Source of the DNA: a virus
Strand: one strand, 5' to 3'
Virus record (IMG/VR): IMGVR_UViG_3300034356_000748
Span: 1 to 42,509 of that record
Length of the DNA: 42,509 nucleotides
Shown here: piece after piece, positions 15,916-31,905 of the stretch
How the letters are laid out: every line of letters begins with the position of its first letter
Numbering within the stretch: the stretch's first letter is position 1
The notes under the pieces: model-generated
The model's database searches: none
What the model was told of the DNA's origin: nothing
The model's input: the letters and a program-made list of their open reading frames with translations, nothing else
Made by a program: the position numbers and the translations under genes

Positions 15916-18900
15916 TAGTTATTACCTTTTAATTCGTCTAACTCTGACTTAAGTTCTTGTATTGCTTTGATAAGCATAGGTACGAATACTGAATATTTTA
16001 CAGACTTAGTCGTAGTCCCCAAATAATTTCCATCCTTATCTTTATCAATTGATGAATCTATTAAACCCGGGAATATCTCCTCAAGTTCTTGTGCAATTAC
16101 TCCGATTTGCTTAGTATCTTCTCCTATCAAATTATAGTTTCTTACCTTGACTTTTAGAAGGTCATTAAGTTTCGGACTAGCATCTGTGATATTTTCTTTT
16201 AGTTTAATATCAGAAATAGCACCATAAGAACCATTTTGATTTACTACATTACCATTTGAGTAAACTATAAACATGCTTGCACCTGCTGCTTTACAAATTA
16301 AAAAATAATTAGTAGAATTGTTAGGTGATGAGCTAAATCCAATCTCTGGACCATAAGGTGATGCACCAATATGTGTAAATAAAGCAATATTTGTATTAGT
16401 TAGTCCTTGTCTTAATTCATGGTAAGCAGCAGTTGAATTTGCATAATCCCCTGAATTGCTTGCTTTAAATGCCCCCTCCGAAGTGATGCGCATTCTTTCG
16501 GTTCCACTATTGTTTGTAAAAAAACACATATTAGGACTATATGTTCCAATAGCAGCATCATTATCTGATGCTCCTCCAGTCCACCAGCTTTTATTTCCAA
16601 TCCCAATAATACTTTGAGTATTGCTTTCATTTCTAACTAATAACGTAGCAGATGTCAAATTACCAGCAACCCGCACCCTCGCTCCTGTGTCTGTTGTCGT
16701 TCCAATCAGCACGTTGCCGCCTGAGGTGATGGTCATTGCAGCACTTCCACCATTGTTAGTTGAGAATAGTATTTTTTGACTATTTGTTGCTCTTATATTT
16801 AAATCACCTAAAGCTGAACCCGTGATAATATCACTTGTTGCTCCAGCCACACCAATCAAAGAATAAGAGGTTGTATCTATTCTATAACTGATATAAGAAG
16901 CACCAGATGTAGGTCTAATTATTAAACCTTCATTTGCATAAGTAGTTATACTACTTGAAAAGTCACCTATTGAAGCAAATAAGCCTCCTCTAGCACCACT
17001 ATTATATCCACTTCCTCTTACTGCAATTCTTAAATTATTATCTATATATCCCTGTAAAACTACTCCAGCTCCATCTGCTGAGATATTATTTTGTTGAGCC
17101 GTTACACTACTTGAAAAGGTAGCTGCGCCTGTAACAGATATACCAGTTGAATTAGCCGTTAATTTACCTGAATCCGAAACTGCTAAAGTAACTGACGTAC
17201 TTGCGTTTAAAACAACATTTGTGCTTTTTGCAATAAAAGAATAGTTAGTTGTGGTTGGAGTTACGCCAACTGGATAAATAGCTCCCCATCCGTCCGTTCC
17301 AGTATATGCCCTTATAATTAAACCTTGTGTTCCATCACTAAACCTACCCGTTCCGTTAACATCTAGTTTAAATCCAGCGTCTGTGTAACCTCCAATTATT
17401 ACATTACCTCCATTGGGTTGCAAATTTAATTGATAAGGTACTGCCAAATTATTATCTGAGGCTTGTATATAAGCTCCGTAATTTCCAGCAACTGTATTGG
17501 AACCAATATTTAATTCGTTACCTAAACTACCTTTTAATTGCAATAAAGAGTTTGCAGTTGTTCCGCTTGTTGGAGGTTGTGCAGATGTTCCTTCAACTGT
17601 TAATTTACCTTCAGGACTTGCCGTTCCAATACCAACGTTGCCTGTTCCTGTAACTCTTAATAATTCTGTCCCGCCATAACCATCAGCCGTAAAAGTAATA
17701 TCGTTTCCTTTTGCGCCTATTGATGGAGCATTACCACCACCTGCAATAAAGTTTATGTAAGCGCCTGAAGTAGAGTTATCATTTCTTACTCCTATAACAT
17801 TTCCACTTGTTGAAGTTCCTGCTTCTTGAACTAAAAATTTACGATTAGGAGTTGCGTTACCAATACCAACATTTGTTCCATTATCAAATACTAAACTATT
17901 CCCAATCGTTGTACTTCCTGTAAACTTTGGCAAGTAGTTAGTCGTCCCTGTCCCAGTTACTGGGTTAGTCAGGGTAGATACAGAACCATTAGCCATAAGA
18001 TACTGCGTAGAAGTTCCTCCTGTCTTTACTATTGTAGGTGCTTCGAAATTACCACCTATCACAGTCATAGCGTTTCCGCTTCCGCTAGTCTTTGTTACTC
18101 GTAAACCTTCACCATTACCGCCTTTGCTGATATCCAAAGCAATACCGCTTCCGCTACCATGGGAGATTATCATGGTTTCAGAACTTCCAGAAGTGGTGAA
18201 GGTTTTCTGTGACGTGATGGTTTGCGTAGTATCTAGAGTTACATAGTTACCACTAGCCTGCTTACCATTCAGTTGAGTTTGAATAGAGCTTGTAACACCT
18301 TTAACATAGCTAAGCTCAGTCAATGATGGGTAGGTAGCTGTACTTAAACTTGCTATAACTGTTGACCCTGTAAAGTATGCCAACTCATTTGTTGTGCCAC
18401 TACCTGAAACAGCATTGGTAAACCCTGAGGTGTATTTAATAATGTCTACAATGTTGCCTGCCATTGTGCCTACAGCAAGTACTACGGTCGTTCCGTTAGT
18501 AGCTGTAAAGTCAGAAGATGTCAATCGAACACCGTTAATGAACACGTCTAGAAGCCCAACAGTGTACCCACCTGTTACAGTGAATGTAGTCTGTGAAGCT
18601 GTAGCAATGTATGTTTGTACCTCTCTAGCAGATGGATTGACTCCAATTGTCCACGACCTGTTTGCTGTTAAGTTATATGTCTCACCATTAATAGTAAGTG
18701 TCCTCAAATCAGTTACAGGAGTGTAACCCAATGCTGTAGTGACATCACTACTAGTCAATGTAACCGCTCCTGTTCTAGTGTTGAAGCTAGTTACTCCTCC
18801 TTGGTACTGAGGGATGTTTAATGTAGATCCTATTAAAGTAGCTGGACCAGTTGTTCCTGTTGTAGTCAAAGTCAAAGAACTTTGTCCACCAATGTCACTC

Positions 18901-27490: not shown

Positions 27491-29104
27491 TTACTTAGTC
27501 TCGTATGATCTAGCCATCGTAATGATGGCGTTAGTGCTCAGGATAGTTGTCGCTACACTCACAGCGTTCTGCAACGCGCTTCGTGTCACCTTCAATGGGT
27601 CAATCACCCCCATCTTGATCAGGTCACCCATCTGCCCGGTCTTTAGGTTGTACCCATGACCAATCGCAGCCCCCTCCTTGTACACGTCACTTGGCTTGAG
27701 CCCAGCGTTTGCAAGGATTTGTTGGAATGGTGCCATCATCGCATTGGATAGGATCTTAATCGCCACACTCATCTCAGGGCTGTAGTGGAAGCTGCCAGTA
27801 GGAATGAGAGTAGCTGTCTCGTCTAGCAACGCCTTGCCAGCCCCTGGTAGTATACCCTCCTCTAGTGCGCTTCTCACTGCGCACACCGCATCGTCAACAC
27901 GGTCATACAGCTCCTTCTGCTCTAGGTCAGTCTGCCCACCTACGTAGATCACACCTATGCCTCCCGTAAGGGAGGCGATCCGCTCCAGAATGTGGTCCTT
28001 GTCAGCCTTCTTCTTAGCAATCTTATGTGCCTGCCATAGCTGCGCCACTCTCTCCTCAATCTTGACTGCGTCTATTCTCAAGTCTGACTTTAGGATGATG
28101 GTCTTGTCCTTGCTCACCACCACTCTGGCCGCATGCCCCAGGTCATCAATACTGATCTGGCTCAGGTCATCCCCTGTCTTCTCACTGAAGTATGTCGCTC
28201 CTACACTCACCGCCAGGTCCTGCATCAGCTCATGCTGTCGATACCCAAAGCTAGGTGGTTGTACCACGCAGATCTTTAGGTTGTTCTTCATCACGTTTGC
28301 CGCCAAGGTGTTGACCACGTTCACATGGCAAGGTGACACAATGAGTAGCTTCTTCCCATCAGTAATGATTGGCTTTAGGATGTTCTCAATCTGCAAAATA
28401 TTACTTATCTCAATGTCAGCCACCAGCACATGCACGTCCTCAAATACGCACTCGTCTCTGCTCTGATCGTTGATGAACAATGGGCTTGTGTACCCCCTGT
28501 CAATCTTTAGGCCCTTAGTGGTCTCAGCATAGGTCTCACTTGTCTGGCTCCGCTCCACCGTTACTATGCCAGTCTTGCCCACCTCCTTGTACACCTCAGC
28601 AATAATGCGTCCGATTTGGCTGTCATTGTTCGCAGAGATTGTTGCCACGTCAACCAGCATTGAGTTAGTCACCTTCTTGCCCTTCTTCTTCAACCCCTCA
28701 ATCACTTTTGAACTCAAGTCAGAAATGTTTCGTAGCACCTCAGTAGTATTCAGCTCAGTCTGGCCTGCACCAATGTGCTCCAACCATCCAAGCACTAACC
28801 CCTCAGTCAACACTATGGCAGTAGTCGTGCCATCACCAGCAGAGGTAGCCGTCCTATCAGCAGCCTCCTTCATCATCTTCACCGCAAGGTTCTCAACAGG
28901 GTCAATCAAGTCAACTGACTTAGCGACAGTCACCCCATCCTTTGTTACCGTAATACCATGCGTGTGATTAGGACTCTCAATCAGTACAGTGTTGCCATAT
29001 GGGCCCAACGTACTCTTGACTGCTCCAGCAATCTTCTTGATGCCAGAGATTAACTTTAGCCTGCCCTCCTGGGCGAACACTAAATCTTTAGGTGAGTATT
29101 CCAT
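27491..29104 (-). CDS. groEL: Phage-encoded GroEL chaperonin
   Basis: 537 aa, close to the 548 of E. coli GroEL. Equatorial ATP site: TLGPYGNTV (32-40), TKDGVTVAK (54-62, Asp56), GDGTTTA (90-96) and RVDDA with Asp405 as the hydrolytic aspartate. The apical domain keeps the co-chaperonin-binding face (KLLIVSPCHVNVVNTLAANV; PPSFGYRQHELMQDLA). The C-terminal GGM repeat tail is missing. It would fold phage proteins, capsid or giant fibres being the usual clients. Own promoter (29121-29150). The GC content is clearly higher and the codon choice more C-rich than in neighbours, suggesting separate acquisition. Confidence 0.95.
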   Translation of the reverse strand: MEYSPKDLVFAQEGRLKLISGIKKIAGAVKSTLGPYGNTVLIESPNHTHGITVTKDGVTVAKSVDLIDPVENLAVKMMKEAADRTATSAGDGTTTAIVLTEGLVLGWLEHIGAGQTELNTTEVLRNISDLSSKVIEGLKKKGKKVTNSMLVDVATISANNDSQIGRIIAEVYKEVGKTGIVTVERSQTSETYAETTKGLKIDRGYTSPLFINDQSRDECVFEDVHVLVADIEISNILQIENILKPIITDGKKLLIVSPCHVNVVNTLAANVMKNNLKICVVQPPSFGYRQHELMQDLAVSVGATYFSEKTGDDLSQISIDDLGHAARVVVSKDKTIILKSDLRIDAVKIEERVAQLWQAHKIAKKKADKDHILERIASLTGGIGVIYVGGQTDLEQKELYDRVDDAVCAVRSALEEGILPGAGKALLDETATLIPTGSFHYSPEMSVAIKILSNAMMAPFQQILANAGLKPSDVYKEGAAIGHGYNLKTGQMGDLIKMGVIDPLKVTRSALQNAVSVATTILSTNAIITMARSYETK

Positions 29105-30462: not shown

Positions 30463-30678
30463 ATGGAAACTTTAGAATTCACTTCAAATCGTTTATTATT
30501 CTTAGCAAGAAATTTCTCTGGCAGTCAGCCTACATTCAGAATCTCATATTGCAAAAAGCACATGGAAATAACAGATTCATGCTCGGCATTTTTGAAGATT
30601 TTAATGTCGGATGAGGGAGTATTGGCAAGCTTTCACAATGGAGTAATACATGTTGAATATTTCAGAAAAATAGGTTAA
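30463..30678 (+). CDS. First rightward small gene, unknown function
   Basis: 71 aa, METLEFTSNRLLFLARNFSG at the start, ending GVIHVEYFRKIG. The ATG follows a leader of AAAC/AAC repeats, like the capsid leader. Its stop codon TAA lies inside helix I of hammerhead ribozyme 1, so a terminating ribosome would cover the ribozyme. No domain recognised. An overlapping frame from 30321 is judged accidental. Confidence 0.55.
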   Translation: METLEFTSNRLLFLARNFSGSQPTFRISYCKKHMEITDSCSAFLKILMSDEGVLASFHNGVIHVEYFRKIG

Positions 30679-30724
30679 CTGAAGAGACTTAAATAGTCGA
30701 AACTGCCGAAAGGCAGTCTTAACC
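30673..30724 (+). ncRNA. Type I hammerhead ribozyme 1
   Basis: All parts are present in order. Helix I: GGUUAA (30673-30678) with UUAACC (30719-30724). Core CUGAAGA (30679-30685). Helix II: GACU (30686-30689) / AGUC (30695-30698), loop UAAAU. Core GAAA (30699-30702). Helix III: CUGCC (30703-30707) / GGCAG (30712-30716), GAAA tetraloop. Then UC, with cleavage expected after C30718 in the GUC triplet. The core fits CUGANGA ... GAAA ... UH without exception. Open ends are in helix I, hence type I. Cleavage leaves a 21-nt leader before ATG 30740. Confidence 0.93.
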
Positions 30725-30739
30725 AAAACAACAAACAAC

Positions 30740-31060
30740 ATGAAGAATCTACAGGAGTTTATCGAAAAAATCCAAACTCAATTTGACTGGGTAAAGAAAG
30801 AATCAGGTCAATTGATTGATTCCAATGGAGTTAAATTGACTCTAAAAATAGAATACAATGATTATTTGGGAATACAGAGTGTTCTTTACTTATCAACTCC
30901 TAGTGGAAGATGTTTTGCATCATGGGGAGCGGAAACAATTGAAGAATCCAATGAAATGGCAAGATTCTTTAATCTGATTAAGCGTGAGACCATGACTTGG
31001 CAAGATAGACAAGAGGAGAACGAGTACAAGATGTACAAAGCAGTTTTCTTCGGAAAATAG
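30740..31060 (+). CDS. Small early-region protein between the two ribozymes
   Basis: 106 aa, MKNLQEFIEKIQTQFDWVKK at the start; central YLGIQSVLYLSTPSGRCFAS looks like a small alpha/beta fold. The ATG is 21 nt after the ribozyme 1 cleavage site and its stop TAG shares its G with helix I of ribozyme 2. After both cuts this gene would be on its own short message. Not recognised. Confidence 0.7.
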   Translation: MKNLQEFIEKIQTQFDWVKKESGQLIDSNGVKLTLKIEYNDYLGIQSVLYLSTPSGRCFASWGAETIEESNEMARFFNLIKRETMTWQDRQEENEYKMYKAVFFGK

Positions 31061-31124
31061 GTTAACTGATGAGTCCTAATTGGACGAAACGTGAGTGAGT
31101 TTACGAACTCACCACGTCTTAACC
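31060..31124 (+). ncRNA. Type I hammerhead ribozyme 2
   Basis: Helix I: GGUUAA (31060-31065) with UUAACC (31119-31124). Core CUGAUGA (31066-31072), the textbook form. Helix II: GUCC (31073-31076) / GGAC (31082-31085), loop UAAUU. Core GAAA (31086-31089). Helix III: CGUG (31090-31093) / CACG (31113-31116), extended after one bulged A by GUGAGU / ACUCAC, loop UUACGA. Then UC, cleavage after C31118. Helices II and III differ from ribozyme 1 in sequence but not in pairing. Leader after cleavage is 21 nt to ATG 31140. Confidence 0.95.
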
Positions 31125-31139
31125 ATAAACACAAAATAC

Positions 31140-31340
31140 ATGAAAAATCCTATTTCTTACCCAAAATACTTTGTATGGGTTTACGCATTCGATGGAAGAT
31201 TGTATAGCATTATTCCATTTAAGAAAAAAGAGAAAGCATACAAAAGAAGAGACTTACTAGAAAAAATGTCTTACAAATGTAGTGTTCATGAAGAATTGCC
31301 ATGTGATTGGACTGACATAGGAGTTTCAATAAGCCTTTAA
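31140..31340 (+). CDS. Small basic protein after ribozyme 2
   Basis: 66 aa from ATG 31140 (MKNPISYPKYFVWVYAFDGR), then basic IIPFKKKEKAYKRRDLLEKM. A GTG-started extension would run through helix III of the ribozyme and is rejected. Leader UUAACCAUAAACACAAAAUAC after cleavage. No domain recognised. Confidence 0.7.
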   Translation: MKNPISYPKYFVWVYAFDGRLYSIIPFKKKEKAYKRRDLLEKMSYKCSVHEELPCDWTDIGVSISL

Positions 31341-31457: not shown

Positions 31458-31552
31458 ACAGAAAAAAAGTACTCGACATCATCTACACAATCATCGCATT
31501 CATTCCAATTTTTATACTTGGATACATGCTTGGACTTCACATCCTAAAATAG
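31451..31552 (+). CDS. Single-membrane-segment small protein (33 aa)
   Basis: MVNRKKVLDIIYTIIAFIPI, then FILGYMLGLHILK. It resembles its neighbour in size and layout (basic start, one membrane segment ending in a 'GLxLEK/GLHILK'-like tail). Its stop codon overlaps the first two bases of the structured RNA at 31551. Confidence 0.6.
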   Translation: MVNRKKVLDIIYTIIAFIPIFILGYMLGLHILK

Positions 31553-31595
31553 ACCATCTTGGAGCATTGGCGAGAATCGTTTTCTCGCATGGTCT
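31551..31595 (+). ncRNA. Unidentified structured RNA between small genes
   Basis: AGACCAU (31551-31557) pairs with AUGGUCU (31589-31595), and GCGAGAA (31570-31576) with UUCUCGC (31582-31588). The two 7-bp helices stack directly on the 3' side, while the 5' side has a 12-base bulge, CUUGGAGCAUUG. No T-run follows, so it is not a terminator. It occupies the same kind of place as the hammerheads (stop codon overlap, 31 nt before the next ATG). No hammerhead core is present. Confidence 0.65.
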
Positions 31596-31626
31596 CAAAC
31601 TTTAATTTAACTTAATCAATCAAACT

Positions 31627-31905
31627 ATGAACATTTTTGAAAGTACAAAAAATCGATTTGGCTATTCAGATGCAATGAGCAAGTCAAATATTTGGGAGAG
31701 GTACGCAAATTACTTTGCAGGTGAAGAAATCATAGAGGAGGGGTTCAATCTTAACTCTGGGTATGTCTACTTAGCACTAGAGAATGGGGTCACAATTGCA
31801 TCATGCTTCGGGCAACCTGCTGAGTTCTTTGTGTATGACGAAGAAACGGAGGAAGAAATATCTTTCTTATTCTATCAAGATTTACAAAATTATTTAAATA
31901 AATGA
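31627..31905 (+). CDS. Small acidic early-region protein
   Basis: 92 aa, MNIFESTKNRFGYSDAMSKS at the start, C-terminal EETEEEISFLFYQDLQNYLN. Preceded by a non-coding structured RNA and an A/T-rich leader; its stop overlaps the next ATG (ATGA), so from here on the genes form a tightly coupled chain. Not recognised. Confidence 0.65.
   Translation: MNIFESTKNRFGYSDAMSKSNIWERYANYFAGEEIIEEGFNLNSGYVYLALENGVTIASCFGQPAEFFVYDEETEEEISFLFYQDLQNYLNK

Follow-up and report, generated by a model that had tools for sequence, protein, structure and literature searches.

Type I hammerhead ribozymes between stop codon and leader in the early operon of a tailed phage related to Flavobacterium phages

Clusters of hammerhead ribozymes between phage genes are already known, and message processing by them was proposed in 2011, when clustered prophage hammerheads were reported to flank single genes and it was suggested that long transcripts are converted by them into single-gene messages (Perreault 2011, PMC3088659). 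Hammerhead arrays were found to cut in vitro, and triple hammerheads from A. tumefaciens cut when transcribed in E. coli (PMC3088659). In the haloviruses HF1/HF2 an early gene is preceded by a hammerhead at a distance of 13 nt, and the 5' end of the transcript was mapped to no more than 3 nt from the cut (PMC3088659), and in E. coli the synthetic insulator RiboJ raises transcript levels ~2-fold and protein levels 2-10-fold (PMC6206723). The biological reason for the association of hammerheads with bacterial and phage genes is still called unknown (PMC10085705).

The locus described here lies in a virus contig, IMGVR_UViG_3300034356_000748, the 42,509 bases of which constitute the window that was analysed. 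As in the clusters of 2011, single phage genes are bordered by two or more hammerheads, so the suggestion in the initial annotation that this arrangement is undescribed does not stand; the present case differs in that the phage is podovirus-like and related to Flavobacterium and Cellulophaga phages, with leaders that have no Shine-Dalgarno sequence, and in that start-codon spacing and stop-codon overlap are tabulated. With HF1/HF2 it shares a hammerhead placed shortly upstream of an early gene within a polycistronic transcript, whereas the halovirus element has an archaeal host, is a salt-adapted variant and precedes the first ORF instead of lying between genes. RiboJ also lies ahead of a ribosome-binding site and leaves a defined leader once cut, but it is synthetic, derived from sTRSV, placed after promoters and followed by an added 23-nt hairpin; the window leaders carry no hairpin, and at a length of 20-24 nt leaders have no better folds than shuffled sequences. 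The RAGATH-1 hammerhead (Rfam RF03152) has the type I layout and a similar core, and is matched by the first of our ribozymes (HHR1) at 29.6 bits, which falls short of the 56.3 bits required for the family, whilst the second (HHR2) is not among the matches.

The large terminase of the phage matches those of Caudoviricetes sp. MW202828 (77%) and Flavobacterium elemoviruses (44%) as well as those of Cellulophaga, Tenacibaculum and Maribacter phages, and the portal, terminase, GroEL, Sak-like annealing protein and primase/helicase families fit a tailed phage. Judged from these relatives, a member of the Bacteroidota is the likely host. The GroEL-like chaperonin is encoded at 27491-29104 (phrog_5725, E 4e-132). 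A rightward early operon is opened by gene A (30463-30678, + strand), which encodes a 71 aa orphan and is followed on the same strand by gene B (30740-31060, 106 aa) and gene C (31140-31340, a 66 aa orphan). Searching Pfam with all three gave no matches and no function, relatives of gene C were not found among viral contigs, and the Bacteroidetes promoter consensus was not found on the + strand upstream of gene A.

Gene B has a ribozyme on both flanks. HHR1 occupies 30673-30724 (+) with a predicted cut at 30718/30719, and HHR2, which has a long stem III, occupies 31060-31124 (+) with a predicted cut at 31118/31119; the initial annotation had placed both cuts exactly, each 21 nt before an ATG. 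In both, stem I is formed by GGUUAA and the UUAACC that follows the cut, and is open-ended. Between these strands HHR1 has CUGAAGA, a stem II of GACU/AGUC closed by UAAAU, GAA, a stem III of ACUGCC/GGCAGU closed by GAAA, and the C of the cut site, and HHR2 has CUGAUGA, GUCC/GGAC closed by UAAUU, GAA, a stem III that begins ACGUG and ends CACGU, and again C. The core expected of a hammerhead (CUGANGA ... GAAA, A15.1-U16.1 and an NUH cut site) is present in HHR1 and HHR2 as CUGAAGA and CUGAUGA respectively, GAAA and GUC, and all three stems were recovered by descriptor scan and by folding. With their flanks included both still fold as hammerheads (z -4.6 for HHR1 and -3.9 for HHR2). It was also correctly noted at the outset that each ribozyme touches the upstream stop codon: the TAA of gene A (30676-30678) lies within the 5' strand of HHR1 stem I, and the last base of the TAG of gene B (31058-31060) is shared with stem I of HHR2.

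These are the only two sequences in the 42.5 kb, on either strand, that pass the descriptor, which found no hammerheads in 40 first-order simulated sequences. Looser stems gave no further type I hammerhead on either strand of the window, and none of its other CTGANGA..GAAA sites is hammerhead-like. Searching the whole window against Rfam at the curated cut-offs gave no match; under Hammerhead_1 (RF00163) HHR1 scores 27.4 and HHR2 18.6 bits, both below a 34-bit cut-off that is an automatic threshold and not a defining property of the hammerhead ribozyme.

A DNA pattern with the stem I of the window (TTAA) gave at least 120 matches in viral contigs, and a structure scan at least 168 hammerheads with this type of stem I. 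A covariance model was built from 45 viral hammerheads together with HHR1, with HHR2 left out. In this 46-sequence alignment 98.6% of cells pair, both sides change in 13 of the 16 pairs, and covariation reaches 0.639 as against 0.144 for shuffled and at most 0.113 for slid partners. The model scores HHR1, which was in its training set, at 75.7 bits and HHR2, which was not, at 63.4 bits (E = 1e-10 in a 1-Mb search). The intact, covarying structure and the score of HHR2 mark both as real type I hammerheads by structure, from which we infer that they are active. Among the matches listed from a sample in which stem I was left free, an A lies 5' of stem I in 104 of 122 and AA or AT on its 3' side in 86 of 122; loop II is mostly U-N-A-N-U, with U at both ends in 84 and A third in 86 of the 92 matches listed. 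The window ribozymes agree with this signature, and its conservation suggests a tertiary contact between loop II and stem I.

The survey adds to what was known a rule of placement, relative to the open-licence literature (later work on phage hammerheads may exist): the ribozyme usually takes up the space between the stop codon, where it begins, and a point shortly before the ribosome-binding region. The figures that follow are descriptive, being taken from the pattern-scan matches listed, from contigs that are interrelated and from mechanical ORF calls. Among 154 distinct TTAA-type matches listed the median distance from cut to ATG is 23 nt (quartiles 21-26), with leaders averaging 22.5 +/- 3.5 nt where there is no Shine-Dalgarno-like motif (n=97) and 25.6 +/- 3.7 nt where there is one (n=36). 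The upstream ORF ends at -2 to +14 nt from the start of the ribozyme in 106 of 145 TTAA-type matches listed (73%), which is explained in part by the ribozyme itself, since GGUUAA (UAA) and CUGA (UGA) provide stops in two frames. When stem I was not fixed, two scans gave 122 hammerheads among the matches listed, with a median leader of 29 nt and quartiles of 25-37. In relatives of the phage the distances are 21 and 22 nt in contig L339, which carries both ribozymes, 27 in G016, 28 in Flavobacterium phage elemoA and 34 in G001. The initial annotation had proposed a standard of exactly 21 nt and had itself named variable spacing in relatives as the finding that counts against it; with a range of 21-34 nt this strict form is refuted.

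The two window leaders (30719-30739 before the ATG at 30740, and 31119-31139 before the ATG at 31140, both +) had further been described as identical and A-rich. Both are indeed 21 nt long and start UUAACC, and the first continues with 15 A-rich nt; the shared start is the 3' strand of stem I, which has to pair with GGUUAA, and an equal length would arise by chance with a frequency of ~0.11 for two random leaders without a Shine-Dalgarno sequence, judged from the viral relatives among the matches listed. The A fraction in the 15 nt before the ATG is 0.73 for gene B, 0.67 for gene C, 0.60 for gene A and 0.40-0.80 for other genes of the phage. A-rich leaders are thus general in this phage and are not a product of the ribozymes.

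We consider it fairly probable that the hammerheads cut the early polycistronic RNA co-transcriptionally, separating cistrons A, B and C (with the rest) and giving them short 5'-OH leaders and hairpin-capped 3' ends. The anatomy, the covariation and the placement in many phages are seen directly; cutting in the infected cell is what these sequence features lead us to expect. Both ribozymes would cleave the transcript during its synthesis, and, given the type I layout, the catalytic body would be retained on the upstream product, so that the messages of A and B would carry the hairpins of stems II and III at their 3' ends, shortly after the stop codon, and terminate in a 2',3'-cyclic phosphate. 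On the messages of B and C, cutting would leave a 5'-OH followed by a short leader free of structure, made up of six stem nucleotides and ~15 nt to the ATG. Since the ribozyme fills the gap that begins at the stop codon and stops short of the ribosome-binding region, the cut would free the start site rather than remove it. 5'-OH and hairpin ends of RNA are in general protected from nucleases. The benefit may lie in uncoupled expression and stability of promoter-proximal accessory genes. Against the separation of cistrons it counts that some close relatives show no type I hammerhead by model R1, that leader distances vary, and that in a compact genome any element filling a gap would abut both a stop codon and a leader. 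Of the message-processing interpretation in the initial annotation there remain active-looking ribozymes at the stop/leader junctions of an early operon, with relatives tending to lie ~20-27 nt before the ATG; the exact standard and A-richness as a product of the ribozyme are lost.

The retained hairpins could themselves be the main purpose, hairpin-capped, cyclic-phosphate ends on the upstream messages replacing a terminator and the short leader being a by-product of compact spacing. The stem III hairpin does end at the cut, with -10.0 and -15.1 kcal/mol in the window and a sample median of -10.0 among the matches listed, and in most viral cases the upstream stop adjoins the ribozyme. It would seem unlikely, however, that this is the main purpose, as cutting does not end transcription and the nearness of the ribozyme to the next start, and not merely its position after a stop, is left unexplained.

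When model R1 was run over 31 whole records or contigs, one type I hammerhead was found in G001 (96% terminase), two in G004 (86%), one in G016 (79%), and one each in elemoA and Agrobacterium phage OLIVR1; none was found by the model in MW202828 (W01, 77% TerL) or in G003 (91% terminase), a 56-kb contig that may be incomplete. As some close relatives have none, the device is probably dispensable. Type III-like hammerheads were seen in G016 (L209, ~220-290) and G004 (L210, minus strand), both of which also have type I; these read CCGUC^CCUAAG..CUUAGG CUGAUGAG..CGAAACGG and lie ~60-90 nt before an ATG. In elemoA (MT497017.1) the hammerhead lies at 17287-17349 on the minus strand. A 108-bp CDS annotated across it at 17275-17382, on the other strand, is probably spurious.

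Genes adjacent to the ribozymes turn over quickly. The L339 copy of gene B is 98% identical and likewise flanked, gene A is different in sequence there with homology resuming at 30672, and another gene (F4) stands in place of gene C. This replacement of A and C at ribozyme borders, seen between the window, L339 and G001, would be expected if the ribozymes were exchange joints whose conserved cores provide homology for swapping accessory-gene cassettes, as would the second ribozyme of L339, which combines a stem II like that of the window with a stem III like that of G001. Ends of homology blocks, however, amount to 0.031 per ribozyme zone against 0.037 at ordinary gene junctions; breakpoints are therefore no commoner than at other junctions, recombination hotspots were rejected, and we regard this role as decidedly improbable.

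Many viral contigs carry 2-8 hammerhead copies at successive gene junctions. The 5.8 kb of contig L333, from an Aliivibrio MAG (JAAGZR010000219.1), contain eight type I hammerheads, all of them followed by an ATG at a distance of 20-34 nt; the contig is probably of phage origin and was binned with a bacterial genome. Copies within a phage resemble one another, with a stem I identity of 0.73 within as against 0.39 between phages in 21 multi-ribozyme contigs, as would be expected if messages were re-joined: the UUAACC at the 5' end of gene B RNA could pair with GGUUAA near the other end of the molecule, and ligation by the HHR2 so reconstituted could close the RNA into a circle. The idea that stem I identity is kept for re-joining looked strong in a first sample of 10 contigs, but in the sample of 21 the copies within a phage resemble one another in stems II and III as well, as duplication predicts, so that duplication suffices. 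Spliced or circular products were, moreover, sought in 2011 and none was found (PMC3088659), and circular messages must be considered very unlikely.

That the ribozymes are regulated, with salt, a ligand or a protein switching the cut, seems equally remote. A salt-dependent role has been suggested for HF1/HF2 (PMC3088659) and some viral leaders of 30-60 nt have hairpins (66% as against 33% of shuffles, n=44, related sequences included), but leaders below 30 nt show no more structure than shuffled sequences do, and those of the window are short and unstructured, with no aptamer-like domain attached. In L052 six post-hammerhead leaders of 44-45 nt have common AGUCAGGUGCAGACUAUAACAGGCAC-like sequences in which a small pseudoknot is possible. 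In L218, L248 and L306 the freed strand of stem I could pair with a repeat 12 nt downstream to give a 5'-terminal hairpin; as a general feature such re-pairing was rejected, with 28 cases observed and 27.1 expected over all leaders.

A third structured element, which is not a hammerhead, was observed at 31551-31597 (+), beginning at the stop of the preceding small ORF and ~30 nt before the ATG at 31627. It has an outer stem (AGACCAU/AUGGUCU), an inner hairpin and a conserved CUUGGAGCAUGG internal loop, with covarying versions in L339 and L006. It has no match in Rfam, and a pattern scan of viral contigs gave convincing folds only in the window, L339/L384 and L006 among the matches listed.

The separation of cistrons remains the reading we favour, and a wider form of it is put forward tentatively: type I hammerheads may be a standard cistron separator of many phages, their spacing selected for a minimal leader matched to the initiation mode of the host, shorter without a Shine-Dalgarno sequence and longer with one, and in this they would be nature's equivalent of the synthetic ribozyme insulator. 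The placement rule makes the question of why hammerheads are associated with genes a measurable one. It can be tested in an isolate, since one hammerhead, 28 nt ahead of an ATG, is present in elemoA, a cultured relative that has Flavobacterium sp. BAL314 as its host. If true, the expression of early accessory genes would be set independently of their neighbours by hammerhead cistron separators.
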